From Brevibacillus agri (lineage in GTDB: Bacteria > Bacillota > Bacilli > Brevibacillales > Brevibacillaceae): a stretch of 64,000 nucleotides of DNA. Location: assembly GCF_004117055.1 (NCBI RefSeq), contig NZ_CP026363.1, positions 1,651,001 to 1,715,000 on the forward strand, read 5' to 3'. Shown piece by piece: positions 3,676 to 29,401 of the stretch; the stretch's first letter is position 1; each line of letters opens with the position of its first letter. The position numbers and the translations under genes were made by a program. The notes beneath the pieces are model-generated. The model saw only the letters and a list, made by a program, of their open reading frames with translations. It made no database searches and had not been told where the DNA came from.

Positions 3676-4838
3676 TGCAGGTGACGACATGGACGAAATC
3701 GTTTGAAGAGTATGCCGAGCAGCTTTTGGCCGAGGCCAACGCGCCAGGAGCGGCGATTGGGGTCGCGCGGGGAGGAAAGCTGCTGTACCAGAAGACATTC
3801 GGCTACCGCGACAGGGAAAACGGGCTGCCCCTCTCGGCCGACACGGTGTTTGGCATCGCCTCGATCACCAAGTCTTTTACGTGCGTCGCCATCATGCAGT
3901 TGCAGGAGGCTGGCAAGCTGTCTGTCCACGATCCGGTCGTCAAGTATTTGCCGGAGTTTCGCGCCGGGGATGAAGAGCTGACGAAGCGGATAACGATTCA
4001 TCACTTCATGACGCATACGCCGGGAATGGCGCCGCTGCCTTTTTTGGACAAAGCGATGAAGCGCAGTATGGAGCAAGACCCGGCGATTGCGGGGACGGAA
4101 GCGGAGGAAGAGCTGAAAAAGCTGCCGTACCTGGACACGTATGAAGAGGTCCTGCAGGCGATCGCGGCGTTTGACGCCAAGCCGCTCGGCGAGCCGGGAG
4201 AAGTGTTCAGCTACAACAACGACGCCTACGGCTTGCTCGGGGCGATCATCGAGCGGGTGAGCGGGCAGACGTATGAACAGTACGTGACCGAGCACATTTT
4301 GCAGCCGCTCGGGATGCAGCGGACCGTGTTTGACGTGGAGGCGCTTGCGGACAAGGACGACGTCACGATTTTGTACACGAACAAAAAACTCGACGGCGAA
4401 AATCAGGTGATTGCCGCCCCGCACTGGCACGATGCCCCCGCCATGCGCGCCGCCGGCTTTCTCAAATCAACCGTGAACGATCTGTTGGCTTACCTGGAAG
4501 TATTCCGCACGAACGGAGAGGGCGTCGCTCCGGTGTACACATACGCGCCGTATGAGCTGGCAGACGAGCAACTGTCCGAATACGCAGGCCGCTATGAATC
4601 GAACGAATGGCTGAATACCGTGATTGCAAAGCGGGATGGGCAGTTGTATTTGGAAGTGGACGGCCTCGTTTATCCGCTATTGCCTGTAGCAAAAGACAGC
4701 TTTATTTTTAGACGGAGAGATTCCATCGTCTGGATCGACTTTTTCCGGGATCGGGAAGGCGAGGTCGCGAGGATGAGCTACGCCTTGCGTCAATTGACGA
4801 AAGCTTCTGTAAACAACGGCTCGTCGGAGCAGCAATAG
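3675..4838 (+). CDS. Serine hydrolase, beta-lactamase class C/EstB family, internally shortened
   Basis: The 387-residue protein has SITK at about residues 64-67 and the tyrosine motif SYNN near 179, the first two motifs of class C-type serine hydrolases. After NDLLAYLEVFRTNG (near residue 280) the sequence jumps to PYELADEQLSEYAGRY, which is normally the linker to the C-terminal domain. The usual segment with the third motif (HxG/KTG equivalent) is therefore missing. Relatives are about 100 residues longer. The reading frame stays open, so a shortened protein may be made, but it is probably catalytically impaired. It overlaps the previous gene by one base. Confidence 0.75.
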   Translation: MQVTTWTKSFEEYAEQLLAEANAPGAAIGVARGGKLLYQKTFGYRDRENGLPLSADTVFGIASITKSFTCVAIMQLQEAGKLSVHDPVVKYLPEFRAGDEELTKRITIHHFMTHTPGMAPLPFLDKAMKRSMEQDPAIAGTEAEEELKKLPYLDTYEEVLQAIAAFDAKPLGEPGEVFSYNNDAYGLLGAIIERVSGQTYEQYVTEHILQPLGMQRTVFDVEALADKDDVTILYTNKKLDGENQVIAAPHWHDAPAMRAAGFLKSTVNDLLAYLEVFRTNGEGVAPVYTYAPYELADEQLSEYAGRYESNEWLNTVIAKRDGQLYLEVDGLVYPLLPVAKDSFIFRRRDSIVWIDFFRDREGEVARMSYALRQLTKASVNNGSSEQQ

Positions 4839-4849
4839 CTTGTCATAAA

Positions 4850-4888
4850 GAAGGATGCGTAAGCTATTTCGCTGCGTATCCTTTTTTT
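4850..4888 (+). terminator. Probable intrinsic terminator
   Basis: An imperfect stem (AAGGAT..GCG with CGC..ATCCTT) is followed by seven T residues after the serine hydrolase pair. Confidence 0.6.
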
Positions 4889-5051
4889 GCCGGAAAAAAG
4901 CAAACGCTTCGCCTGGCTGCGGCAAACGGACGTTGTCGTGCAAAAAGAGAACCGGCGTATCATTTTTTATTTATGTGTGAGAAGGAACCAGTCACAGTCT
5001 AGCGAATTGTCCTTTGGTTGGGAAAATATGGGGAAGGGCAAGAGGGAAACA

Positions 5052-6254
5052 ATGAGTGACGAAGAGTGGATTTCGGTCAGGGACAGATGGCTGTCGCCGT
5101 TGCTGGTCGCTGCGGAGGAAATCGTGGAGCTGCACATGCAAGACATGCTTTCATTTGGAGAGCCGATTTCCCGTTACTATCGCAAATATCAGCAACAGCA
5201 GCGGATAGGGGTTCACGGCTTGCTGACAGAAGCGGTGCAGCAGCTATTTGCAGAAGAGGGCGAGTACACGGTATATTTGCAGGCGCTGCCCAGGAAGTCG
5301 TACAAGTGGGGGGAGAGGTGGGCGAAGGAAGAAATCCCGAAGGAAGTGCTGCTCGAAGCGATGCACAACCTGCGCCACCATGCGTATGAGGGCATACGGC
5401 GAGCCTGCACGGAGGCACTGGCCAGAGAGGAACTGTTGTCGCGCCTGCACGATGTGCTAAGCGTGCGCTATCACCACACGATGCGCGGATACTTGGCGAG
5501 CAAAGATCAGAAGATCAGCCATTTGCACCAGCAAAAAATGGGGGTCATCGGGCAGATGGCCGCAGGCATGGCGCATGAGATACGCAATCCGTTGACGGCG
5601 ATTCGCGGATTTTTGCAGTTGATGCGAAAAAGTCTGGAACTGGAGGCTCCCTCTCCGGCAGACAGGGAGCGCTTTGCCAAGTACATTCAAATTTGCCAGC
5701 ACGAGGTGCAAACCTTGGACAAGCTGGTCACGAGCTTTTTGATTTTGGCCCGCAAAAATGAAGCGGCGAACAGCCGCAACGAAATCGTCGAGCTGCACCC
5801 GCTGCTGGAGAGGGTGCATGAGCTGACGATGCATTCTCTCATCGAAAAAGATGTGCACTTGTCTTTTCATTATTCACCTGAGCAAGTCCGGGTCTGGGCG
5901 ATTCCATCCCACGTGGAGCAAATTTGCCTCAACCTGATGCAAAACGCGATCGACGCAGTGGACACAAACGGAATCGTCCGGATTCACACCCGTTTTTTTG
6001 CCTCCGAATCAACGGTCAGCGTGACGATTGAGGACAACGGCTGCGGTATTTCCGAGCAGCGCAAGAAGCATTTGTTTGAGCCGTTTTATACGACGAAGGA
6101 AAAGGGGACGGGCATCGGCCTCTCCGTCTGCAAAAAGCTGGTCGAGGAAATGGGCGGGCAGATCGAGATTTACTCGACAGAAGGGCAAGGGACAAGGGTC
6201 GAGTTGCGCTTGAGCGCCGTCGTCCCGGCTGAGCCAGCTTGCCTTGCCAGATGA
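5052..6254 (+). CDS. Orphan sensor histidine kinase, sporulation-kinase-like
   Basis: The 400-residue cytosolic protein has an N-terminal all-helical domain of about 160 residues and then HisKA with AHEIRNPLT (phospho-accepting His near residue 175). The HATPase domain shows the N box (NLMQNAIDAV), DNGCGIS and FYTTKEKGTGIGL. There are no membrane segments. No response regulator is adjacent, as is usual for kinases feeding the Spo0 phosphorelay, so a sporulation or stationary-phase role is plausible but inferred. The start at 5052 is chosen for GAGGG five bases upstream; an in-frame ATG at 5028 is the alternative. A shared terminator separates it from the convergent nupC. Confidence 0.8.
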   Translation: MSDEEWISVRDRWLSPLLVAAEEIVELHMQDMLSFGEPISRYYRKYQQQQRIGVHGLLTEAVQQLFAEEGEYTVYLQALPRKSYKWGERWAKEEIPKEVLLEAMHNLRHHAYEGIRRACTEALAREELLSRLHDVLSVRYHHTMRGYLASKDQKISHLHQQKMGVIGQMAAGMAHEIRNPLTAIRGFLQLMRKSLELEAPSPADRERFAKYIQICQHEVQTLDKLVTSFLILARKNEAANSRNEIVELHPLLERVHELTMHSLIEKDVHLSFHYSPEQVRVWAIPSHVEQICLNLMQNAIDAVDTNGIVRIHTRFFASESTVSVTIEDNGCGISEQRKKHLFEPFYTTKEKGTGIGLSVCKKLVEEMGGQIEIYSTEGQGTRVELRLSAVVPAEPACLAR

Positions 6255-6290
6255 AGCTGGCAAGCTCAATCCGCAGAAGCTGCGAACGCA

Positions 6291-6329
6291 AAAAAACAGG
6301 CATGGCTGTGAGCTGCATGCCTGTTTTTT
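6291..6329. terminator. Bidirectional terminator
   Basis: A 14-bp perfect stem (AAAAAACAGGCATG with its complement) and an 11-nt loop serve both the kinase gene (+) and nupC (-). Confidence 0.85.
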
Positions 6330-6349
6330 GCGTGGAAGCCAGCCGCCGA

Positions 6350-7534
6350 TCACAGAAAGACGCCGATGATCGTGGCGGACAAGACAGAGGCGAGCGTGGA
6401 GCCGAGCAGCAGCTTCAAGCCGAATTTCGCCACGAGATCGCCCTGCTTTTCATTCAGCGCGCGCACAGAGCCTGTAATGATGCCGATGGAGCCGAAGTTG
6501 GCAAAGCTGACGAGGAAGACCGAGACGATGCCGACCGTTTTCGCCGACAGGCTGCTCGCGATTTCCTTGAAGTCGAGCATCGCGACAAATTCGTTCGTGA
6601 CGATTTTCGTCGCCATGATGCTGCCAGCCGTAACGATCTCCGCCTGGGGAATGCCCATCAAAAAGGCGACAGGAGCGAAAATGTACCCGAGCACGTCCTG
6701 GAACGAAATGCGGAAGATCAGCAAAAACAGCTCGTTGACCAGATTCATCAGGGCGATGAAGCCGATCAACATCGCGCCGACGATCACGGCGATTTTCAGC
6801 CCGTCCACGATGCTCTCGCTAATCATCTGGAAAAAGGCAGGCCTCTCTACTTCTGCCTCAGGCTCGATCAAGTCTTCTTCCGCCGTCAGCTCGTACGGGT
6901 TGATGATGTTGGCGACGATCAGCGCCGACAGGATGTTCACGACGATGGCGACGACCACGTATTTTGGCTCCAGCATGGTCATGTAGGCGCCGACGATGGC
7001 AATGCTCACAGCGCTCATGGCAGAGGTGCACAGCGTATAGAGACGCTTGCTGGAGACGAGCCCGAGCTGCTTTTTCGTCGTCAGAAACACTTCCGATTGC
7101 CCGAGAAAAGCAGAGGAGACCGCGATGTAGTTTTCCAGCCGGCCCATTCCGTTCAGCTTGCTCAGCACGAAGCCGGTGAAGCGAATGAGCAGCGGCAAGA
7201 TTTTAAAATGGTTCAAAATCCCGATCAGCACGGAGATGAAAATAATCGGCAGCAGCACATCGAGAAAGAAGGTGGACGTGCCGTTGTTTTCCAGCCCGCC
7301 AAACACGAAGTCCACTCCGCTGATCCCGAGCTTCATCAGTGTATCGAAGCCTTTGGAAATAAACAAAATCAGGTCAATCCCGAGCCCGGTATTGAGCAAA
7401 AGAAAGGCCAGCACGAGCTGGGTGGCGATCATGATGAGAATCGGCTTTAGCCTGATCGCTCTGCGATGATGGCTGAGCGCAAAGCCCACGCCGAACACAA
7501 ACAGTAAACCCGTCAACAAAAAAACGACATTCAT
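6350..7534 (-). CDS. nupC: NupC/CNT family nucleoside transporter
   Basis: This 394-residue membrane protein has the concentrative nucleoside transporter layout: N-terminal helices, a Gate-like region (LGQSEVFLTTKKQL), and a C-terminal core with TAGSIMATKIVTNEF and SFANFGSIGIITGSV. These segments bind nucleoside in the family. It imports nucleosides with H+ or Na+. The ATG at 7534 is favoured because the sequence immediately upstream is poor in protein-like signals; GGAGG lies about 12 nt upstream. It is divergent from the TrmB-type regulator, and the shared intergenic region holds an inverted repeat also found before pbuE/deoD. Confidence 0.88.
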   Translation of the reverse strand: MNVVFLLTGLLFVFGVGFALSHHRRAIRLKPILIMIATQLVLAFLLLNTGLGIDLILFISKGFDTLMKLGISGVDFVFGGLENNGTSTFFLDVLLPIIFISVLIGILNHFKILPLLIRFTGFVLSKLNGMGRLENYIAVSSAFLGQSEVFLTTKKQLGLVSSKRLYTLCTSAMSAVSIAIVGAYMTMLEPKYVVVAIVVNILSALIVANIINPYELTAEEDLIEPEAEVERPAFFQMISESIVDGLKIAVIVGAMLIGFIALMNLVNELFLLIFRISFQDVLGYIFAPVAFLMGIPQAEIVTAGSIMATKIVTNEFVAMLDFKEIASSLSAKTVGIVSVFLVSFANFGSIGIITGSVRALNEKQGDLVAKFGLKLLLGSTLASVLSATIIGVFL

Positions 7535-7601
7535 TGCTACTTTCTGCCTCCCAATTATGACAAGTATCTCATGCTGCGCGAGGTGCATGTCCCTTCCAGG
7601 C

Positions 7602-7634
7602 CCGTGGAGCCGCTTTCAAAGCGTTTTGAAAGAG
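7602..7634. repeat. Inverted repeat in the nupC leader
   Basis: CTTTCAAA and TTTGAAAG flank a short centre, giving a near-perfect dyad between nupC and its likely promoter. It could be a CcpA-like or other operator site; the match to a cre consensus is imperfect. Confidence 0.35.
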
Positions 7635-7654
7635 AAGTGCAACGATTTTGAATT

Positions 7655-7681
7655 TTAGTTACTACTCGTGGAGTAACCTAA
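7655..7681. promoter_or_regulatory. Operator candidate GTTACT-N8-AGTAAC (nupC/trmB)
   Basis: GTTACT at 7658-7663 and AGTAAC at 7672-7677 form an inverted repeat with an 8-bp spacer, with TTA/TAA flanks extending the dyad. The same half-sites with the same spacing occur at 31534-31553 in front of the pbuE-deoD operon. The position between two divergent genes suits a local regulator, most simply the TrmB-type protein at 7807. Confidence 0.6.
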
Positions 7682-7806
7682 TTTGCAGGCTTTTACCAGC
7701 TTACATGGAAGCCAGGCGCCTGTCAATTCGGAGGTTCGTTGGCTTTGTGTCCATCTATGCTTTATCATAGGAAATAAATAACCAGTTGATACGGGCAGGA
7801 GGAAGC

Positions 7807-8565
7807 ATGTTACAAAAATTTGGTTTTTCACAGTATGAAAGCAAAGTTTTTGAAGCGCTGGTGTCGAGCGAGGAACCGTTGGACGCGACGAAAATCGTGA
7901 AATATTCCGGCGTGCCAAAAGCGAAAATATACGAAGTGCTGTCGCGCATGATCGAAAAAGGCATGGTGCTGGATTCGGTATCGGAAAAGAAAAAGCTCTA
8001 CAGTGCGCTGCCCTTGCCGCTTGCCATCGAAAAGCTGACGGCAGAGTTCCAGGACAACATCAAGCAGTTGAAAATCCAGTCGCGCAAAAAGTCCTACTCC
8101 GAAGATTTGGTTTGGAGCCTGAAGGTCGACACGTCGATTCGCGTACAGAGCAAGCAGATGATTCAGGAAGCGAAAAGCTCCATCCGCATTTCGGCGTGGA
8201 AAGACGATCTGGTCGAGTATTTGCCGCTTCTGGAACAGAAAGAAGCGGACGGAGTAGACGTGGAGGTGCTCGTCGTCGGGGCGTTGAAGCCGAATATCGC
8301 CAAAGTGCATACGCTGATTCCGGCAGCAGAGCACCACACGCTGGAGCGCTTTCGCCTGCTGATTATCGACGAGCGCGAGGTGATTTTCGCCTGTGAGGAA
8401 AACCAGTCGTGGCAAGCGATCAAAACGATGTCCAAGCCGTTTGTCAAAGTTTTCACGGAATTTTTCTACCACGATCTCGCGCTGGCGAAAATCAGCCGGA
8501 AGCATTACGATCTGATGATGAATGACGACGAGATCAGAAGCATTTTGATGCAGCTTCGTTATTGA
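7807..8565 (+). CDS. TrmB family transcriptional regulator
   Basis: The 252-residue protein begins with a winged-helix domain (FGFSQYESKVFEALVSSEE, then SGVPKAKIYEVLSRM) typical of TrmB. A coiled linker and a C-terminal phospholipase D-like effector domain (KSSIRISAWKDDLVEYLP) follow. TrmB proteins usually sense sugars or related metabolites. Here the divergent nucleoside transporter and the shared operator suggest a nucleoside or ribose-type ligand (inference). AGGAGG four bases before the ATG fixes the start at 7807. Confidence 0.8.
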   Translation: MLQKFGFSQYESKVFEALVSSEEPLDATKIVKYSGVPKAKIYEVLSRMIEKGMVLDSVSEKKKLYSALPLPLAIEKLTAEFQDNIKQLKIQSRKKSYSEDLVWSLKVDTSIRVQSKQMIQEAKSSIRISAWKDDLVEYLPLLEQKEADGVDVEVLVVGALKPNIAKVHTLIPAAEHHTLERFRLLIIDEREVIFACEENQSWQAIKTMSKPFVKVFTEFFYHDLALAKISRKHYDLMMNDDEIRSILMQLRY

Positions 8566-8629
8566 GGCTCCGTTAGGAAGGCGAAGGGAAACCGCTTTTG
8601 CAGGTGCAGATGAGTTGCGGGATCGCCAG

Positions 8630-8684
8630 CAACGCGCCAGAAATGCGCCAGAAATGCGCCAGAAATGCGCCAACAATCCGCCAG
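8630..8684 (+). repeat. Five-unit 11-bp tandem repeat
   Basis: Five consecutive 11-bp units related to AAATGCGCCAG lie between trmB and ridA. The middle units are identical or nearly so, and the outer two differ by a few bases. The array runs straight into the terminator stem. Confidence 0.8.
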
Positions 8685-8717
8685 ACATGCTTGCAAGCGA
8701 GCGTGCCTGGCTTTTTT
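8680..8717 (+). terminator. Probable terminator after trmB
   Basis: GCCAG and CTGGC close an imperfect hairpin (inner arms pair partly), followed by six T residues. Confidence 0.6.
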
Positions 8718-8840
8718 GCTGGATAGATTTTTAAAAAATTAATCGTATTCAAAAATTTGTTGAAAAAGAAGTGCGCAGAATAGTATGGTTAACGTAACGA
8801 AAAATATTTCTGACTTTTCATTCATTCGCGGGGTGATGCT

Positions 8841-9302
8841 ATGTCGAAGATCGAAAATCGCTTGCAGCAACTGGGCTATACGCTGCCGCCGCCACCGCCG
8901 ACGATGGCGAACTACGTCTCGTGCGTGCGGACGGGCAATCTGCTCTACACTTCCGGGGCGGGCTGCTACGTCGATGGCAAGCCGCTCTACCTGGGCAGGC
9001 TGGGGGCAGACGTGACGATCGAAGAAGGGTACGAGGCGGCGAAAATTACGACGCTCAATCTGCTTTCGATGCTGAAAGCCGAGCTTGGCGATCTCGACCG
9101 GATTGTGCGCATGGTCAAGCTGTTTGCGCTGGTCAGCAGCGCGCCGGATTTTTACGAGCAGCCGCGAGTCATCAACGGCGCTTCCGACCTTTTGATCGAA
9201 GTGTTCGGGGAGGCAGGCAAGCATGCGCGGGCGGCAGCCGGAACCTCTGTCCTGCCCTTCAACAATCCGCTTGAGATTGAGCTGATTGTGGAGGTCAGTT
9301 GA
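8841..9302 (+). CDS. RidA/YjgF/Rid family protein
   Basis: The 153-residue protein has the Rid fold signature: YTSGAGCYVDGKPLYLGRLG near the start and a C-terminal GTSVLPFNNPLEIELIVEV. Rid proteins hydrolyse reactive enamine/imine intermediates or act on related amide bonds. This is the longer subgroup with an N-terminal LQQLGYTLPPPPP segment, common in amino acid and purine degradation clusters. It is the first gene of a likely three-gene operon with a DauR-like regulator and a dipeptidase. A probable sigma-A promoter (TTGTTG, 18 bp, TAGTAT) lies just upstream. Confidence 0.85.
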   Translation: MSKIENRLQQLGYTLPPPPPTMANYVSCVRTGNLLYTSGAGCYVDGKPLYLGRLGADVTIEEGYEAAKITTLNLLSMLKAELGDLDRIVRMVKLFALVSSAPDFYEQPRVINGASDLLIEVFGEAGKHARAAAGTSVLPFNNPLEIELIVEVS

Positions 9303-20185: not shown

Positions 20186-21547
20186 TCAAATCGCTTCCTC
20201 AAAGTCGATGACAGGCGGCTTTTTCGTGAAAAACTTGGTGCCGATCAGCAAGTAGCCGATGCCCGCCAGCGTCCAGAGCAGCCCGAGCGTCAGGGCATGG
20301 CTGTCCAGGTTGTACCAGAGAAACGCGACGAAGCTGGTCCCGCACAACGGGGCAAGCAAGTAGCGATACGTATCCGCCAGGGAACGCCGTTGGTTGCGAA
20401 TATAGTAATGGGCGATGACGGAAGCGTTGACGGCAGTAAAGGCGGTCAATGCCCCAAAATTAATGAAGGCGAGCGCCGTCTCCAGATCGAGGAACAGCGC
20501 AGCAAGCGACACCGCCCCGACGAAAAACACGTTGCGAACCGGGATTCCTCTCGTTGGATGCAAGTGGCCGAACAACTTTTTCGGCAAGACGTTTTCCCTG
20601 CCCATTACGTACAGCAGGCGGGAAGCGCTCGTGTGGGAAGCGATCCCGGAGGCGAGAGCGGCGGTAATGCTGCCTGCCACGAAAAACGCATAAAACAAGT
20701 CTTGTCCGAGAATCATCGACATCTCCGGCGAGGGGGACTCCGGGTTTTGGAACTGGTCGACAACCGGAAAAGCGAGCTGCGTGAAATAGGAGGTAGTAAT
20801 GAAAATGACGCCGCCAATCAATGCGACGAGAAAAATGCCGCGCGGAATCGTCTTCATTGGATCGACCGCTTCTTCCGTATAAGTGGTGACCGCGTCAAAG
20901 CCGAGAAACGAAAAGCAGAGAATGGCCGCTCCGGTCAGCAAGGTGGGAAAAGAAATCGCTTCGCCGTAAAATGGCTGGATCGTGAAGGCGCTCTCCCCGT
21001 TTGCTGCCGCACTGATGTGCGAGATGCTCAAGCCGATAAAGACGACGACCACGATCACCTGAAACACGACCAGCAGCGTGTTGAAGTTGGCCGTAGACTG
21101 AATACCGCGAAAATTGATAAAAGTAGTCACCGCAGCAAGCAAAATGCCCAAAATCCAGCCGGGAACCATCGGGAAGGCGGCGGATAAATAAATTTTGCCC
21201 AAAAGCACATTGATGACGGGCAGAAACACGTAGTCCAAAAGCGACACCCAGCCGACCAGAAAGCCGATGTGCGGATTGATCGCCTGGCGCGCATACGAGT
21301 AAGCCGAGCCGGCGACAGGGAACACCCGCACCATTTTTCCGTAGCTGGATGCGGTAAACAGCATCGCTGCCAGCGCGAGAATGTACGCGGTCGGGACGTG
21401 GCCCCCGGTTTCCTGGCTGACGATCCCGTACGTGTCAAACACAGTCAGAGGCGTCAAATAGCCAAGCCCCAATACGATGACTTGCCACAGCTTCAAGCTT
21501 CTTTTTAACGTGGGTGCTGAAGTTGAATAATTCAGGCTTTTTTCCAT
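20186..21547 (-). CDS. puuP: PuuP-like putrescine importer (APC family)
   Basis: The 453-residue permease is very like E. coli PuuP as recalled: LKRSLKLWQVIVLGLGYL, TVFDTYGIVS, GHVPTAY, NPHIGFLVGWVSLLDYVFLP, INVLLGKIYLSA, CFSFLGFDAVTTYTEE and SRLLYVMGRENVLPKK. PuuP imports putrescine with protons. The ATG at 21547 is preferred over an in-frame TTG two codons earlier because AAAGGGGA lies seven bases upstream. The gene has a 200-bp leader, a sigma-54 promoter at 21786-21771 and the enhancer pair at 21851-21887. This is the better of the two PuuP candidates in the window. Confidence 0.88.
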   Translation of the reverse strand: MEKSLNYSTSAPTLKRSLKLWQVIVLGLGYLTPLTVFDTYGIVSQETGGHVPTAYILALAAMLFTASSYGKMVRVFPVAGSAYSYARQAINPHIGFLVGWVSLLDYVFLPVINVLLGKIYLSAAFPMVPGWILGILLAAVTTFINFRGIQSTANFNTLLVVFQVIVVVVFIGLSISHISAAANGESAFTIQPFYGEAISFPTLLTGAAILCFSFLGFDAVTTYTEEAVDPMKTIPRGIFLVALIGGVIFITTSYFTQLAFPVVDQFQNPESPSPEMSMILGQDLFYAFFVAGSITAALASGIASHTSASRLLYVMGRENVLPKKLFGHLHPTRGIPVRNVFFVGAVSLAALFLDLETALAFINFGALTAFTAVNASVIAHYYIRNQRRSLADTYRYLLAPLCGTSFVAFLWYNLDSHALTLGLLWTLAGIGYLLIGTKFFTKKPPVIDFEEAI

Positions 21548-21770
21548 GACCAATCCCCTTTGCGAGTGAAATGAGAGCGTTTAACATTCAGAAGTCGCTT
21601 CGTCCAAAAGCAAGCTTCGATCAACGGCCTGTTACGAGCAAAAGCCAGTTCCTATTCGATCCAGTCCTCCCGCCGCCCGGCTGCGGAGTCTGGTCGCATC
21701 GTTTCTCCTCATGTCATTTGCCCCCCTTGCCAAATCGGTGGTGATGCGACTGTTTGCATCAGCAACTGTA

Positions 21771-21786
21771 AGCAAGGGATGTGCCA
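21771..21786 (-). promoter_or_regulatory. Sigma-54 promoter (leftward, puuP)
   Basis: On the minus strand the site reads TGGCACATCCCTTGCT, matching TGGCAC-N5-TTGCW at all conserved positions. It is about 225 bp upstream of the puuP start. Confidence 0.8.
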
Positions 21787-21850
21787 AAAGCGAAAGCAGC
21801 CCGCAGTCCGGCTTTTTCGCTCACGAGCAAGCCTAATCGAAGACAATGAT

Positions 21851-21887
21851 CCATGCAAAAATTCATCGTTTACCCAAAAATGCATAA
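21851..21887. promoter_or_regulatory. Shared enhancer box pair between divergent sigma-54 promoters
   Basis: CCATGCAAAAATTCATCG (21851-21868) and TTACCCAAAAATGCATAA (21870-21887) start 19 bp apart. They lie 65 bp from the leftward puuP promoter and 45 bp from the rightward promoter in front of the glutamate dehydrogenase remnant, so one enhancer could serve both. Confidence 0.65.
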
Positions 21888-21931
21888 AGCGAGAAAGCGC
21901 ATGCCAATAAGAAGGCACGAGGATCGCCGTT

Positions 21932-21947
21932 TGGCACACGACTTGCT
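21932..21947 (+). promoter_or_regulatory. Sigma-54 promoter (rightward, glutamate dehydrogenase remnant)
   Basis: TGGCACACGACTTGCT is a full match to TGGCAC-N5-TTGCW. The remaining coding homology begins only about 30 bp downstream, so the promoter outlived the 5' part of its gene. Confidence 0.75.
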
Positions 21948-21978
21948 AAAACAGCAGAGGTGTAGCAGCAAAACGCAG

Positions 21979-22441
21979 GACGCCCGGGTCATCATTCAAG
22001 GGGTTGGAAACGTCGGCAGCTACCTGGCGAAGTTTTTACATGAACAAGGAGTAAAAATCGTCGGGATCGGGGACGCCAATGGCGCGATCTACGACGAAGC
22101 TGGCCTCGACATTCCGTACTTGCTGGAGCGCCGCGATTCGTTTGGCGCGGTCACCCAGTTGTTTGCCGACCGGATCACCAACCAGGAGCTGTTGGAGCGG
22201 CCGTGCGACATCCTCATTCCGGCGGCGTGATCGTTTCTTATTTTGAATGGGTGCAAAACAACCAGGGCTACTACTGGGATGAGGCGACGGTCGACAAGAT
22301 GCTGCGCGAGAAGATGGAGGGAAGCTTCCGCAAGGCGTACGAGACAGCAGAGCAATACAGCATCGACATGCGCAAGGCCGTGTACATGGTCGCCGTCAAA
22401 AGGCTGGCGGAAGCGGCACGTGTGCGGGGCTGGGCGAACTA
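21979..22441 (+). pseudogene. Glutamate dehydrogenase remnant (RocG/GudB type)
   Basis: The first part reads the NAD-binding core of Glu/Leu dehydrogenases (VIIQGVGNVGSYLAKFLHE, DIPYLLERRDSFGAVTQLF, CDILIPAA). At about 22228 it jumps into another frame that gives the family's C-terminus (GGVIVSYFEWVQNNQGYYWD, AVYMVAVKRLAEAARVRGW). The catalytic N-terminal half and an internal stretch of roughly 80 codons are gone. The internal junction lies at a short CGGCGG repeat, suggesting slippage-type deletion. In related bacteria this enzyme links amino acid breakdown to 2-oxoglutarate and is sigma-54 controlled. Confidence 0.88.
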
Positions 22442-22472
22442 AGCGGGGAAACACGGGCATAAAAACAGCGGC

Positions 22473-22506
22473 AGGAGCGTTGCTCATTCGGGCGGCGCTC
22501 CTTTTT
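22473..22506 (+). terminator. Terminator after the glutamate dehydrogenase remnant
   Basis: AGGAGCG pairs with CGCTCCT around a 16-nt loop, followed by five T residues. Confidence 0.7.
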
Positions 22507-22530
22507 CGCGATCAGACCAGGCAAAAGCGG

Positions 22531-22567
22531 TTATGCAAAAATGGATAGATCATGAAAAAACGAATAG
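22531..22567 (+). promoter_or_regulatory. Enhancer box pair for the agmatinase unit
   Basis: TTATGCAAAAATGGATAG (22531-22548) and TCATGAAAAAACGAATAG (22550-22567) start 19 bp apart. The first is the best single copy in the window. The pair ends 40 bp before the sigma-54 promoter. Confidence 0.7.
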
Positions 22568-22606: not shown

Positions 22607-22622
22607 TGGCATAATTTTTGCA
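22607..22622 (+). promoter_or_regulatory. Sigma-54 promoter (agmatinase)
   Basis: TGGCATAATTTTTGCA has the conserved GG and GC doublets at the right spacing. The agmatinase start lies 290 bp downstream, leaving a long leader that holds a 40-codon reading frame. Confidence 0.78.
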
Positions 22623-22673: not shown

Positions 22674-22796
22674 ATGCGAAACAAGCTTTTCCTCATCGCT
22701 GTCCTGCTGTCCATGATCCTGTTGCCGGCTTTCGCCCATCCGGCGAGCTTGTTTGCAAAAGGATACAGGCAGCGTTGGGCAGGAGCTGAGGGATAG
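22674..22796 (+). CDS. Possible small secreted peptide (40 aa)
   Basis: MRNKLFLIAVLLSMILLPAF starts a signal-peptide-like sequence ending in a short charged tail. AAGGAG lies 12 nt before the ATG, and the frame ends at 22796. It sits in the leader of the agmatinase transcript. It may be a real small exported peptide, a leader peptide, or the stump of a truncated secreted protein. No homologue recognised. Confidence 0.4.
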   Translation: MRNKLFLIAVLLSMILLPAFAHPASLFAKGYRQRWAGAEG

Positions 22797-22911: not shown

Positions 22912-23856
22912 ATGCAATATCCACTTTCCCCAGATGTAAAACCGGAGTTTTGCACGACAGGCACTTTCATGCGTCTGCCGTCCGCGCGAGAAAATGCCAA
23001 GGTAGCGATCATCGGACAGCCGTTTGACACGGCGGCGTCCTTCCGCGTCGGAGCGCGCTTTGCGCCGCAAGCGATTCGCCAGGCTTCGATGACGCTGTTC
23101 CCGTACCATCCGACGCACAAAGTGTACCCGTTTGAAGACACCAAGGCGATCGACATCGGGGACGTCCCGGTCATCCCGCACAATATCCACCGCAGCTACG
23201 AGCTGATGGAGGAAGCCATGCTCGACCTGATGCAAAAAGGAATCGTGCCGATCGGCTTGGGCGGGGATCACTCGATTACGCTGGCCTCGCTGCGGGCCGC
23301 CAAAAAAGTGTACGGCCAGGTCGCGATGATTCAGTTCGACTCGCACACGGACACGTGGGATACGTATTACGACGAAAAATATTGGCACGGCTCGCCGTTT
23401 ATCCGGGCGCATGAGGAAGGGCTGCTTTTGCCGGACAAAGTGTTTCAGGTCGGCATTCGCGGGACGCTCAACCACCCCGGCGATCTCGAAGCGAGCTACG
23501 AGCTTGGCTACAACGTCGTCACGACGCAAGAGCTGCGCAACCGCGGCTGGGATGACGTGCTTGGCGAGATCAAGGCAAAAATCGGGGACACGCCGTGCTT
23601 TTTGACCTTTGACATCGACTTTGTCGATCCGGCTTTTGCTCCGGGAACAGGCACGCTCGAAGTAGGCGGCTTCACCAGCCACGAGGCGCTGCAAATGATT
23701 CGCTCCTTGACCGGCCTGAACTACATCGGCTTCGATCTGGTCGAGGTGCTGCCTCCGTACGACCCGGCACAGATCACGTCGCTGTTGGCAGCTACGCTGA
23801 TTCACGACTTTGCCGCCCTGGTCGCCCTGCAACAAAAGCAGGCTGTGAGCAAGTAA
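22912..23856 (+). CDS. speB: Agmatinase family ureohydrolase
   Basis: The 314-residue enzyme has all manganese-site motifs of the ureohydrolase fold: GGDHS near residue 118, DSHTDTWD near 143 and DIDFVDPAFAPGTG near 234. These proteins split a guanidino group into urea and an amine. SpeB converts agmatine to putrescine, the best fit here since the next genes degrade putrescine. Guanidinobutyrase (giving GABA) is the main alternative. GGAGGA lies eight bases before the ATG. No other biosynthetic polyamine genes are near, and the sigma-54 promoter points to catabolic use. Confidence 0.88.
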   Translation: MQYPLSPDVKPEFCTTGTFMRLPSARENAKVAIIGQPFDTAASFRVGARFAPQAIRQASMTLFPYHPTHKVYPFEDTKAIDIGDVPVIPHNIHRSYELMEEAMLDLMQKGIVPIGLGGDHSITLASLRAAKKVYGQVAMIQFDSHTDTWDTYYDEKYWHGSPFIRAHEEGLLLPDKVFQVGIRGTLNHPGDLEASYELGYNVVTTQELRNRGWDDVLGEIKAKIGDTPCFLTFDIDFVDPAFAPGTGTLEVGGFTSHEALQMIRSLTGLNYIGFDLVEVLPPYDPAQITSLLAATLIHDFAALVALQQKQAVSK

Positions 23857-23861
23857 TCCAG

Positions 23862-23898
23862 CTATTCATTTTTGCATAATCTATGAATTTTTGAATAG
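23862..23898 (-). promoter_or_regulatory. Enhancer box pair for the dehydrogenase-aminotransferase unit
   Basis: Read on the minus strand, TTATGCAAAAATGAATAG (23879-23862) and CTATTCAAAAATTCATAG (23898-23881) start 19 bp apart. The second is an imperfect palindrome with CTAT/ATAG ends. The pair starts right after the agmatinase stop and lies about 55-90 bp before the sigma-54 promoter. Confidence 0.7.
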
Positions 23899-23951: not shown

Positions 23952-23967
23952 TGGCACGAGAGTTGCT
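23952..23967 (+). promoter_or_regulatory. Sigma-54 promoter (aldehyde dehydrogenase)
   Basis: TGGCACGAGAGTTGCT is a full match to TGGCAC-N5-TTGCW, about 50 bp before the start of the dehydrogenase gene. Confidence 0.82.
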
Positions 23968-24015: not shown

Positions 24016-25488
24016 ATGATGAACCTGAAGATGTACATCAACGGGGAATGGGTAGACGCGCAAAGCAAAAAGACCCGCGAGATTGTGAATCCCGCTACGG
24101 GGGAAGTGATTGCCCTCTCGGCAGAAGGGGACGTGGAAGACGCCCGCCATGCCATTCAGGTCGCTCGCGAAGCATTCGACAGCGGCATCTGGTCGGAGCT
24201 TCCGGCAGCAGAGCGCGCCCGCTACCTGTTTAAGATCGCCGACAAGCTCGAGGAGCGCGCGGAAGAAATCGGCAGGCTGGAGACGCTGGACAACGGCAAG
24301 CCGCTGCGCGAGACCGCTTTTGACGTTGCCGACGCGGCTGCGTGCTTCCGCTATTACGCGGGCCTCGTTACCAAGCCGGACGGGCAGACCTATCACGTGG
24401 CAGACCCTGTGCAGGCGATGGTCGTGCGCGAGCCTGTCGGCGTATGCGGCCTGATCGTGCCGTGGAACTACCCGCTGCTCATGGGCGTGTGGAAGATCGC
24501 GCCTGCCTTGGCCGCCGGGAACACGATCGTCTTCAAGCCGTCTGAGGTCACCCCGGTCACTGCGCAAAAGCTGTTTGAAATCATAGAAGAAGTAGGCATC
24601 CCGAAAGGCGTAGCCAACATGGTGCTGGGCGCGGGAGCTACGGTAGGCAACGAGCTGGCGGAGAGCCACCTGGTGGACAAAATCTCGTTTACAGGCGGCA
24701 CGGCTACCGGACGCAGCATCATGCGGGCCGCTACAGGCAACATCAAAAAAATTTCCCTCGAGCTTGGCGGCAAGTCGCCGAACATCGTGTTTGCCGATGC
24801 CGACTTCGAGACGGCTGTCGATTACGCGCTATTCGGAATTTTCGCGAATCAAGGCCAGGTCTGCTCCGCCGGATCGCGCCTGCTGCTTGAGGACAGCATC
24901 CACGACCGCTTCGTCGAGCGGCTGGTGGAACGGGCGAAAAAAATACGCGTAGGCCGCGGCGACGATCCCGCTACCGAGATGGGGCCAGTCGTCAGCCAGG
25001 CGCACATGGAAAAAATCTTGCACTACATCGAGCTTGGAAAAGCAGAAGGCGCCCGTCTGGTGTGCGGAGGCAACCGCTTGACGGCAAACGGCCTGGAAAA
25101 AGGCTACTTCATCGAGCCGACGATTTTCACCGATACGACCCCGTCCATGAAGATCGTCCAGGAGGAAATTTTCGGTCCTGTGCTGGCGATCCAGCGCTTC
25201 CGGGACGAAGCAGACGCCATCCGCATCGCCAACGATACCGTCTACGGACTGGCGGGCGGCGTGTTCACTCAGGACGGCGCCAAGGCGATGCGCGTCATCA
25301 AGAAGCTGCGCGCCGGGATTACGTGGATCAACTGTTACCATCCGACGTACAACGAAGCGCCGTGGGGCGGCTACAAGCAGAGCGGCATCGGCCGCGGTCT
25401 GGGCACGTATGGCTTCGAGGAGTACACAGAAGTCAAGCAGATCAACATCAACCTGCACGTACAGCCAACCGGCTGGTTTGAAAACTAA
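24016..25488 (+). CDS. Aldehyde dehydrogenase, probable 4-aminobutanal dehydrogenase
   Basis: The 490-residue NAD(P)-dependent aldehyde dehydrogenase has the catalytic glutamate in LELGGKSPNIV (about residue 250), the catalytic cysteine in NQGQVCSAGSRLL (about 283), and the cofactor segment FTGGTATGRSI. Sequence type is that of betaine/aminobutyraldehyde dehydrogenases. With a putrescine aminotransferase directly downstream (24 bp gap) it should oxidise 4-aminobutanal to GABA in the cytosol. The start at 24016 has GGAGAGG upstream. The open frame runs further 5', but that part includes the promoter. Confidence 0.88.
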   Translation: MMNLKMYINGEWVDAQSKKTREIVNPATGEVIALSAEGDVEDARHAIQVAREAFDSGIWSELPAAERARYLFKIADKLEERAEEIGRLETLDNGKPLRETAFDVADAAACFRYYAGLVTKPDGQTYHVADPVQAMVVREPVGVCGLIVPWNYPLLMGVWKIAPALAAGNTIVFKPSEVTPVTAQKLFEIIEEVGIPKGVANMVLGAGATVGNELAESHLVDKISFTGGTATGRSIMRAATGNIKKISLELGGKSPNIVFADADFETAVDYALFGIFANQGQVCSAGSRLLLEDSIHDRFVERLVERAKKIRVGRGDDPATEMGPVVSQAHMEKILHYIELGKAEGARLVCGGNRLTANGLEKGYFIEPTIFTDTTPSMKIVQEEIFGPVLAIQRFRDEADAIRIANDTVYGLAGGVFTQDGAKAMRVIKKLRAGITWINCYHPTYNEAPWGGYKQSGIGRGLGTYGFEEYTEVKQININLHVQPTGWFEN

Positions 25489-26898
<1,410 letters not shown>

Positions 26899-26943: not shown

Positions 26944-26969
26944 CCTTTCTTCTCCATGGGAGCCCTGAG

Positions 26970-26975
26970 TATAAT
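26970..26975 (+). promoter_or_regulatory. -10-like TATAAT before the activator gene
   Basis: A perfect TATAAT lies 34 bp before the activator start, after the patA terminator. No good -35 is seen. It suggests separate, sigma-A-type expression of the regulator. Confidence 0.4.
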
Positions 26976-27009
26976 AGAAGTCACACGCCAAGCAATATTG
27001 GGAGGACCT

Positions 27010-29148
27010 ATGGTTTCAAATCGTTTTGTCAGAAAAGCGTTGACTGTATCGTTTGAATCTTCAGTAAATGAAGTCCGGAACATCATGTCACGGTTCAACG
27101 AACGCTATGTGTTTGTAACCGATCCGAACAATGAACAAAAGCTCGTTGCCTATATACGCAACACCGATCTGCTGCAACGGATGACGGACGCGGACTGGAT
27201 GGACAGGCCCGTGCGCGAGTTGCCCTATCAAACGAACCTTTCTTTTTTGCAACAGGGAGAAGACGTCCCGGATTTTTTCAAAGTATGCGGAGAAGAAGTC
27301 GTCGTGGTTTCCGGTCCGGCCGGACAGCCCGAAGGCTACTTGCGCCGCGAAGATGTGCTGTACTACGTCCTGACCAGCCAGTCCGGGCACCCCGACTGGA
27401 TTCGCTCGCTGCTCAACTCGATCCCGATGGGCATTTTGATTGTGGACGAGAAGGGGCGGATCGAGAACTTCAGCTCGGAAGTGTTGCGGATGGTTCGCGT
27501 GACCCCGGAGGAGCTGCGCCAGCAACGGGTCGGCGAGTTGCTCGACCCGGACGTTTTTCACAAAGTGATCGAGTACGGGGAAAAGGTGCTCAACTACATC
27601 ATTGTCAACGAACGGATCGGGGTGCTGGCCGATTTTTGCCCGATTCGCAGCCAGGACGGCACGGTAACCGGGGCGACGATCGTCCTGCAAGATTTGCCGT
27701 ACATCGAAAAAATGGCGATGGAGATGGAATACGTCAAAAACCTCAACACCGACCTGCAAGGGATTCTTTCCTCGATCTACGACGAGATTCTCGTCCTCGA
27801 TGAAAAAGGCGTGCTGTTGCGCTACAGCGGCAACCTGATCGAAGACTTTTGGGAGATCAACAAGGAGCAGCTCGTCGGCATCAATCTGATGGAGCTGGAG
27901 CAGGAGGGGCTGTTTTTCTCCGCGATCGTCCGGATGGTGATGGAGCGAAAACGAAAAGTGTCCGTCACCCAGGAGAGCCGCTCGGGCAAAAATGTGCTCG
28001 CGGTCGGCAACCCGATTTTTGACGGCAAAGGCAAGCTGGAGCGGATCGTCATTGCGCTGCGGGATATTACGGAGACGGTCATGCTGAAGGAAGAGCTGCT
28101 CCAGGTCAAAAAAATATCGGAGAAATACAAAAAGGAACTGGAGCATTTGCGCGACCAGAAGCAGTACGCGAAAAACCGCCAGTTGATCTACGCCAGCGAG
28201 CCGATGGAAAGAGTGATGAAGTACATTCACAAGATCGCCAACACTTCGTCGACCGTGCTGCTCACCGGGGAATCCGGCGTCGGCAAAGAAGTGTTCGCTC
28301 GCACGATTTACGAGTTGGGGCCGCGCTACAACCACCCGTTCGTCAAGGTCAACTGCGGGGCGATCCCGGAGACGCTGTTGGAGAGCGAGCTGTTCGGCTA
28401 TGAAAAGGGCGCGTTTACAGGCGCGAATACGAACGGCAAGCCGGGGTATTTCCGCATGGCCCACAAAGGCGTGCTGTTTCTCGACGAGATCGGAGAAATG
28501 CCGCTCAATCTGCAGGTCAAGCTGCTGCGCGTCCTCCAGGAGCGAGAGATCATCCCGGTAGGCGGCTCGGAGATCGTCGAGGTCGATGTGCAAATCATCG
28601 CCGCGACGAACAAAAATCTCGAAAAAATGGTCGAGGAAGGCACGTTTCGCGAGGACCTTTACTATCGGCTGAACGTCATTCCTGTCGTGATTCCGCCGCT
28701 GCGCGACCGCCCGGAGGACATCCCGCTCATCAGCCTGCACTTTTTGCAAACCTTCAATGAAAAATACGACCGTTCCACCCAACTGTCCCAAGACGCCCTC
28801 GACCTGCTGGAATCGTATTCCTGGCCAGGCAACGTGCGCGAATTGCAAAACATCATCGAGCGAATCGTGGTCACCGCAGACGAGGATCTCATCGAAGCGC
28901 ACCACATTACGCCGCTGTTGAAGACGAAGAAAAAGCAGTATATGCGGCAGCGTTTGACCAAGATCATGCCGCTGAAGGAAGCGACGAGAGCGATGGAGGA
29001 GCAGCTTATCAAGATGGCGATGGACGAGTTCAAGACGACGTCCATGGCAGCCAAGGTGCTCGGCGTCAGCCAGTCCACGATCAGTCGCAAATATCAGGAA
29101 ATCCAAGAGAAGATAAGTCGAGGTGAGCAGATTGGGTTTAAAGTATGA
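27010..29148 (+). CDS. Sigma-54-dependent transcriptional activator, CBS-PAS-PAS-AAA+-HTH
   Basis: The 712-residue protein has an N-terminal CBS pair (residues about 1-115), two PAS domains (about 130-235 and 250-365, e.g. LNSIPMGILIVDEKGRIENF), then an AAA+ domain. The AAA+ domain has Walker A GESGVGKE (about 419), the sigma-54 contact loop GAFTGA (about 466) and Walker B LFLDEIGE. The C-terminus has a Fis-type helix-turn-helix (AAKVLGVSQSTISRKYQEI). There is no receiver domain, so ligands probably act through CBS/PAS. It follows the polyamine genes and is the natural candidate to bind the 19-bp-spaced boxes. GGGAGG before the ATG at 27010 sets the start; a longer frame exists upstream. Confidence 0.92.
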   Translation: MVSNRFVRKALTVSFESSVNEVRNIMSRFNERYVFVTDPNNEQKLVAYIRNTDLLQRMTDADWMDRPVRELPYQTNLSFLQQGEDVPDFFKVCGEEVVVVSGPAGQPEGYLRREDVLYYVLTSQSGHPDWIRSLLNSIPMGILIVDEKGRIENFSSEVLRMVRVTPEELRQQRVGELLDPDVFHKVIEYGEKVLNYIIVNERIGVLADFCPIRSQDGTVTGATIVLQDLPYIEKMAMEMEYVKNLNTDLQGILSSIYDEILVLDEKGVLLRYSGNLIEDFWEINKEQLVGINLMELEQEGLFFSAIVRMVMERKRKVSVTQESRSGKNVLAVGNPIFDGKGKLERIVIALRDITETVMLKEELLQVKKISEKYKKELEHLRDQKQYAKNRQLIYASEPMERVMKYIHKIANTSSTVLLTGESGVGKEVFARTIYELGPRYNHPFVKVNCGAIPETLLESELFGYEKGAFTGANTNGKPGYFRMAHKGVLFLDEIGEMPLNLQVKLLRVLQEREIIPVGGSEIVEVDVQIIAATNKNLEKMVEEGTFREDLYYRLNVIPVVIPPLRDRPEDIPLISLHFLQTFNEKYDRSTQLSQDALDLLESYSWPGNVRELQNIIERIVVTADEDLIEAHHITPLLKTKKKQYMRQRLTKIMPLKEATRAMEEQLIKMAMDEFKTTSMAAKVLGVSQSTISRKYQEIQEKISRGEQIGFKV

Positions 29149-29401
29149 CGTAGTATCGCCATTTGCCGGAACCATTGCGCGAATCTTTTTTCGATTGAGT
29201 GATTCTGTGCAGGAGGGAGAAGTGCTGTTCACGCTCGCAGACGGCAGCCGGAGCATCGACATCCTCTCTCCGGTTACAGGGAGTGTGGAGGCGATTGAAG
29301 TCGAGCAAGGCGAGCTGGTAATTGCGGGGATGATTTTGGCGTCGATCATGCTCTGCAGCGAAGAGTCGAGCAAGCGGGACGAATGCGAAAGCAAGGCGTA
29401 A
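29123..29401 (+). CDS. Lipoyl/biotinyl-like small domain protein without the modifiable lysine
   Basis: The 92-residue product has two hammerhead halves: VVSPFAGTIARIFFRLSDS then VQEGEVLF, and ILSPVTGSVEAIEVEQGE then LVIAGMILASI. In carriers the turn between them holds the E(S/M)KM-type lysine; here it reads ADGSRSID, with no lysine. So it is either a non-modified relative (glycine cleavage H-like or efflux-adaptor-like) or a degenerate carrier. It overlaps the activator gene by 26 bp using a GTG start; TTG at 29132, preceded by AGGTGAG, is an alternative. Overlap suggests coexpression with the activator. Confidence 0.65.
   Translation: MSRLGLKYDVVSPFAGTIARIFFRLSDSVQEGEVLFTLADGSRSIDILSPVTGSVEAIEVEQGELVIAGMILASIMLCSEESSKRDECESKA

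Follow-up and report, generated by a model that had tools for sequence, protein, structure and literature searches.

The window, a 64,000-nucleotide stretch of the Brevibacillus agri genome, carries two divergent sigma-54 promoters around one enhancer, and one of the two target genes, a glutamate dehydrogenase (gdh), is a relic. The question is why a promoter and an enhancer stand intact before a broken gene, and to which regulon that gene belonged. We are confident that the site is what remains of a divergent sigma-54 polyamine regulon from which gdh was recently deleted. The features of the locus are as follows.

20186..21553, minus strand: puuP-like permease of the APC family, the leftward target of the divergent promoter pair (Pfam PF00324/PF13520)
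21771..21786, minus strand: sigma-54 -24/-12 site of puuP, exact match to TGGCAC-N5-TTGCW
21852..21886, no strand given: enhancer of two dyad boxes between the divergent promoters (box-pair pattern scan, alignment)
21932..21947, plus strand: sigma-54 -24/-12 site of the gdh relic, exact match, aligning with the gdh promoters of loci L012 and L123
21979..22220, plus strand: gdh relic piece 1, corresponding to roughly codons 222-302 of an intact copy (homology to intact gdh, Pfam)
22221..22442, plus strand: gdh relic piece 2, the last 73 codons with the stop, in a different frame from piece 1
22473..22507, plus strand: probable intrinsic terminator after the relic, a 13-bp stem and then U5
22532..22566, plus strand: second enhancer box pair, lying ahead of the promoter for leader-speB (repeats and box-pair pattern scan)
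22607..22622, plus strand: sigma-54 site of the leader-speB unit, TGGCAT, one mismatch
22674..22796, plus strand: small ORF (40 aa) opening with a conserved 16-aa leader peptide
22912..23856, plus strand: speB, agmatinase (TIGR01230, 211.4 bits, cut-off 174.3)
23863..23897, minus strand: third enhancer box pair (repeats and box-pair pattern scan)
23952..23967, plus strand: sigma-54 site of the aldehyde dehydrogenase unit, exact match
24016..25488, plus strand: aldehyde dehydrogenase, aminobutyraldehyde/betaine-aldehyde type (Pfam Aldedh)
25513..26898, plus strand: patA, putrescine aminotransferase (NF008570, 761.2 bits, cut-off 612)
26956..29148, plus strand: sigma-54 enhancer-binding activator with PAS, AAA+ and HTH domains, likely regulator (domain profiles)

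The name puuP is a label by context because the permease reached no NCBIfam cut-off, and the NCBIfam models for the aldehyde dehydrogenase were likewise under cut-off among the matches listed. The gene at 25513 encodes a putrescine aminotransferase and not GabT; gabT is absent from the window locus, so that a GabR-type activator with a gabT target was not found there. The activator has 730 residues, and its best NCBIfam model, PrdR, scored 454.6 bits, below the cut-off of 795. A small protein with a biotin/lipoyl-like carrier domain (29123-29401) overlaps the end of the activator gene and occupies the same place in all eight Brevibacillus puuP-speB loci.

Both divergent sites displayed the GG and GC expected at -24 and -12 of a sigma-54-dependent promoter, and the puuP site was kept in 8 of 8 Brevibacillus loci compared, the copy of B. 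parabrevis (L121) with one mismatch. The window holds five -24/-12 sites at up to one mismatch; shuffled sequences averaged 2.74 and 16 of 100 reached five, therefore the window-wide count is no proof by itself. Across the genome, the pattern TTGGCAYN5TTGCW occurred 27 times and its reversed control five times, with four of the 27 matches lying within 2.2 kb at the puuP-speB locus. These genome-wide counts, together with presence in relatives, ruled out chance promoters despite the non-significant count in the window. No sigma-70 promoter was found between 21560 and 24050 (shuffle mean 1.4), and no Rfam element matched between 21500 and 24100 at E values up to 1. Another exact -24/-12 match, at 1007-1022, lies away from the polyamine locus and does not have the box pair.

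The original prediction placed full -24/-12 matches on both sides of a box pair, and both proved exact, with the pair located at 21852-21886, 66 bp from the puuP site and 46 bp from that of the relic. The second pair lies 41 bp before the -24/-12 site of the leader-speB unit, and the third 55 bp before that of the aldehyde dehydrogenase. By gene and box positions, the locus thus combines an activator gene with enhancer-like boxes near its promoters, a synteny which suggests that this activator acts on the boxes. The first pair aligned in L012, L123, L122, L121 and L118, whereas L119 and L120 had none at the corresponding position. An earlier scan with a different consensus and an A-run filter gave a single box for each of the window, L118, L120 and L123, and none in L119, L122, L121 and L012; the final calls rest on repeats, the derived pair pattern, alignment and a scan of upstream regions. 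The pair pattern was derived from three sites of the locus and run at up to three mismatches over the whole 5.37 Mb genome, where it matched four times (three by construction) and its reversed control not at all.

The one independent match lies before gabT at 688 kb, in a separate gab locus (L195, about 4596-8988; G000:C1:686595-690988) that encodes a GabR-like activator of 467 aa and carries the same box type, a sigma-54 site, gabT and gabD. No gdh, puuP or speB match was present in the 16-kb stretch around it. The GabR-like activator may recognise the same box type as is found at the polyamine locus, and cross-talk between the GABA and polyamine regulons through this locus is possible.

The relic retains the Pfam ELFV_dehydrog domain at 26-120 and 171-241 of 241 residues. 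As predicted, a dehydrogenase had lost its N-terminal half and an internal piece behind a promoter and enhancer that are still whole: alignment to the complete genes of relatives showed that 154 internal nucleotides are gone, along with codons 1-222 of 426 (220 in the numbering of L123). Besides these 222 codons, the first deletion took the start, the ribosome-binding site and some of the leader, and shortened the distance from promoter to homologous codons to 50 bp, against 733 and 724 bp in the intact relatives; the second, of 154 nt, shifts the frame. Start, domain integrity and reading frame are therefore lost, and intact syntenic orthologues exist (L012, L123), as expected of a pseudogene. 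The substitution pattern was not relaxed (dN/dS 0.083 against 0.093 for the intact pair), and the 153 codons still comparable contain no internal stop. We read this pattern as a sign of probable recent loss, though it is also compatible with function. Behind the relic, a hairpin missed by a simple terminator scan was recovered at 22473-22507 by folding against shuffles (-28 kcal/mol over 22455-22515, z -4.81, equalled by 0 of 200 shuffles). Two further complete gdh genes are present elsewhere in the genome.

The check proposed at the outset was to look in sister species for an intact gdh between puuP and speB, and it was found at the syntenic place, with promoter and box pair, in B. migulae (L012, 426 aa) and in Brevibacillus G009 (L123, 424 aa). 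In both, the box pair stands between the puuP and gdh promoters as in the window, and the gdh site (TGGCAT, one mismatch) lies 158 and 160 bp from that of puuP (161 bp in the window). The gene order is puuP on one side and gdh, gabT, leader peptide, SSADH-like gene, speB, aldehyde dehydrogenase, patA and activator on the other. GabT of L012 passed the NCBIfam cut-off for GABA transaminase (596.5 against 506.65), and the SSADH-like gene reached none among the matches listed. Compared with these two loci, the window lacks an intact gdh, gabT and the SSADH-like gene. No scraps of gabT or of the second aldehyde dehydrogenase gene (aldh2) were detected in six gap regions (window, L121, L118-L120, L122), the best E values being 0.47 and 0.70. 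The proposed link between polyamine nitrogen and glutamate was thus supported by the intact orthologues, but it was drawn too narrowly, since the whole agmatine-putrescine-GABA-succinate route is linked and not gdh alone.

A total of 11 among 26 genomes of the genus, including that of the window, hold a close speB (81% identity or more). Eight Brevibacillus loci have puuP upstream of speB; two carry an intact gdh, the only such copies found in the genus, and the window, its species represented by one strain, carries the relic. At the gdh place of B. parabrevis there is a GDH C-terminal scrap (E 1e-7), with two shorter and weak matches (E 0.04) and no promoter, and four of the eight (L118, L119, L120, L122) have no gdh at all. 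Outside the eight and not counted as losses are B. invocatus (L126), where neither puuP nor gdh was seen, and B. massiliensis (L019), which has a puuP fragment only. L122 has no gdh, and the enhancer adjoins the gabT promoter instead. In L119 and L120, gdh and the puuP-side box pair are both gone; in the alignment the sole boxes between the divergent puuP and speB promoters are degenerate ones before the leader-speB promoter, and one enhancer may again be common to both promoters.

A different gdh fragment might have landed behind an unrelated sigma-54 promoter, with one of the two complete genes elsewhere in the genome as its source. Phylogenetic analysis makes this origin exceedingly improbable. 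The relic is 80% identical to the L012 GDH at the amino-acid level; its pieces are 75 and 81% identical to that protein but only 63 and 53% identical to the nearer paralogue of the same genome. Relic, L012 and L123 formed one group (100/100), and the syntenic intact genes share promoter and enhancer, so the idea that the fragment came from elsewhere does not hold and a displaced paralogue was ruled out by the GDH tree. All polyamine-locus GDHs including the relic fell on one side of that tree (33 rows, 99/66), or with support of 100/100 for the 32 left when Ammoniphilus is removed, the placement of the latter in the group being weak (SH-aLRT 66). RocG, GudB and the Brevibacillus housekeeping GDH fell outside; the group did not join B. 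subtilis RocG, which sits with GudB and the housekeeping GDH. L069 and L075 were left out of all trees, and the main tree also omits L182-L184, which have a second GDH type on a long branch. When L182-L184 were included, the polyamine group still formed one side of a branch, with 91 SH-aLRT in one tree and 86/78 in another in which the second piece of the relic is misread.

The relic might instead still do something, either as protein or through its promoter. Translation of the two pieces as a truncated useful protein would account for 153 stop-free codons with a purifying-type substitution pattern; it is very unlikely, as the stretch leading from the expected transcription start to the homologous codons offers no start codon with an evident ribosome-binding site, a frameshift separates the pieces, the N-terminal half is gone, and recency yields the same pattern. 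A promoter kept by selection for a new role, whether a regulatory RNA or read-through into speB, is somewhat easier to entertain and nevertheless improbable. Its -24/-12 site is exact and thus nearer the consensus than the TGGCAT (one mismatch) of the intact relatives, and in L122, which has no gdh, the enhancer stands beside the gabT promoter. Against this, no such site is left at this position in B. parabrevis or in the three reuszeri-group loci, speB has its own enhancer and promoter with a strong terminator-like hairpin in between, and the first 147 nt of the expected transcript showed no more stable a fold than shuffled sequence (z -0.87, equalled by 32 of 200 shuffles). The age of the relic, moreover, suffices to explain persistence.

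This age was estimated from the retained codons, where dN/dS was 0.083 from the relic to L012, 0.047 to L123 and 0.093 between the intact pair; the method is simple, codons are few and dS is near saturation, so that the direction seems firm and the dates do not. The relic branch had a dN of 0.047 (bootstrap 0.023-0.073), where about 0.29 would be expected under neutrality since the split from B. parabrevis, this expectation being half of the aldh dS of 0.581 to that species (the speB dS is larger, 1.087 in all; patA was excluded for unequal lengths). The relic codons show no excess of amino-acid change, which argues for a recent loss, and because neutral decay since the split would leave more change, gdh probably still functioned once the lineage of the window had diverged from B. 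parabrevis. A low dN would also be expected if the pieces were still under selection. If gdh survived that split, the losses are separate on the locus tree, and we infer four of them: the window, B. parabrevis, the reuszeri group and G007, which stands beside the intact G009 (88/95). Parsimony on the locus tree alone, leaving the age argument aside, gives two changes. That a promoter was kept while its gene decayed was observed as predicted, yet a selective explanation is needless, since after a recent loss an intact promoter persists without selection. The relic itself is ordinary decay, and the polyamine-gdh regulon is the interesting part.

That regulon extends beyond Brevibacillus. In a survey of agmatinases, 80 loci were kept from 258 matches, several of them from one genome and with flanks varying up to 8 kb. 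A gdh lay inside the fetched flank in 35 of the 80, L012 included, often in the company of a puuP-like gene and of an activator sharing about 50% identity with that of the window. Among 33 polyamine-locus gdh genes read over at least 350 codons, 31 had a -24/-12 site (at most two mismatches, within 250 bp upstream): 16 exact, 14 with one mismatch and one with two, a count made without a shuffled control. Of the other two, L060 gains a site from a later start and the gene of L075 is broken. This count leaves aside short GDH fragments from L055 (three), L038 and L075 (one each). A dyad box at up to three mismatches was present in 30 of 34 gdh upstream regions, each of the 30 being matched by at most 3 of 50 base shuffles; L061, L068 and L082 (four mismatches) and L013 (five) fell short of the threshold. 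The last, from Ammoniphilus, has gdh and the -24/-12 site and no recognisable box. In Neobacillus pocheonensis (L055) and one Peribacillus frigoritolerans strain (L075) gdh is split into several pieces, which could reflect either sequencing errors or additional losses.

The idea that the two complete gdh genes of the window genome were rewired into the regulon was rejected, as their 3.7-kb loci hold no -24/-12 site at up to one mismatch on the gdh strand. At two mismatches L001 had a single match, downstream of its gdh, and L002 had three, which by our estimate fall about 0.4 kb ahead of the start, within the gene and beyond its end. No box pair was found in either locus at up to three mismatches, by a scan which a single degenerate box would escape.

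Several known systems resemble this one in part. In the B. subtilis roc system, a SigL promoter enhanced by RocR drives the catabolic GDH gene rocG, as described in the relevant passages of PMC4348106, and on that account sigma-54-type control of a GDH within a catabolic regulon is common to both. The roc inducers, however, are arginine, ornithine and proline. The boxes described here are located upstream, between divergent promoters, whereas the rocG enhancer reportedly lies downstream, a finding ascribed to Belitsky and Sonenshein in 1999, and the polyamine GDHs lie outside RocG in the tree. The gab cluster of Bacillus thuringiensis, in the account given by parts of PMC4279683 and PMC4428206, has a sigma-54 activator with a PAS domain, GabR, that controls GABA transaminase through a repeat-type enhancer. 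It is in this respect like the 688-kb locus in kind, the boxes of the latter being of the polyamine-locus type, and its GabR, given there as 57 kDa (PMC4279683), differs from the 730-residue activator of the polyamine locus. A general link of sigma-54 with GDH and agmatinase in Bacillota has been published at COG level (PMC12316311), in passages that are silent on losses, on enhancer sharing and on any GDH group of polyamine loci. Laboratory B. subtilis carries gudB as a cryptic GDH gene with a perfect 18-bp direct repeat and constitutive expression, according to PMC4285742. Like the relic, on this description, it is one Bacillales GDH inactivated while another remains, but the relic arose by two deletions and has a sigma-54 promoter. 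No polyamine-locus GDH group was found in the open-licence papers searched.

The leader peptide before speB was a separate observation. It reads MxxKLFLIAVLLSMIL, followed by a tail variable in length and sequence. Across Brevibacillus, Aneurinibacillus and Ammoniphilus there is almost no variation at residues 4-16 (KLFLIAVLLSMIL), with B. invocatus differing at three, and the peptide can still be recognised in Priestia and Robertmurraya. Of the 80 agmatinase loci, 16 have it upstream of speB; in L012 it precedes the SSADH-like gene. The loci having it are the window, L008-L015, L017, L019, L022, L024, L054, L063, L064, L067, L072 and L118-L123, some with a sigma-54 site and some without. In 16 chosen sequences, a set that omits L011 and L120 (shifted start) and L063, L064 and L067 (divergent), one of 12 second codon positions varied against 11 of 12 third positions. 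Among 39 genomes of the order the pattern occurred once each in nine, and never in controls; seven of the nine are Brevibacillus, with the peptide before speB (five) or before the SSADH-like gene and speB (two), and the remaining two have letters identical to L019 and L014. We would guess that it may be a leader or arrest peptide.

Taken as the leftover right arm of a divergent, presumably sigma-54-dependent polyamine-catabolism regulon, the relic site fits the following mechanism. The activator encoded at 26956-29148 would bind paired dyad boxes of about TATKC-N6-KMATA and fire the promoters for uptake (puuP) and for agmatine and putrescine breakdown (speB, aldehyde dehydrogenase, patA). Its ancestral targets would have included gdh-gabT-SSADH as well. 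There GDH would have consumed glutamate produced by the transaminases, with ammonium release and renewed supply of 2-oxoglutarate. Two deletions, probably recent, then destroyed gdh in the window lineage, with gabT and the SSADH-like gene gone too; the two other GDH genes and the separate sigma-54-type gab locus could cover the chemistry. Enhancer and promoter would persist owing to the youth of the loss and to the continued use of the enhancer by puuP, and any transcript from 21932 would probably be untranslated and end at the terminator.

A wider reading, for which we see about even chances, is that of a Bacillales polyamine regulon, so far undescribed, with its own non-RocG GDH group and paired TATKC-N6-KMATA enhancers. 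From this regulon gdh would have been deleted independently at least four times in Brevibacillus, with the surviving enhancer re-paired (to gabT in L122, and to leader-speB, with degenerate boxes, in L119 and L120) and still serving divergent units.

A single relic thus becomes a tree-supported case of a regulon that appears to have lost its glutamate output while its control DNA stayed. It is also a warning that an intact promoter and enhancer do not guarantee a functional target when the loss is young. For the polyamine-locus GDH, which is distinct from RocG, the conserved promoter and enhancer predict co-induction with agmatine and putrescine breakdown.
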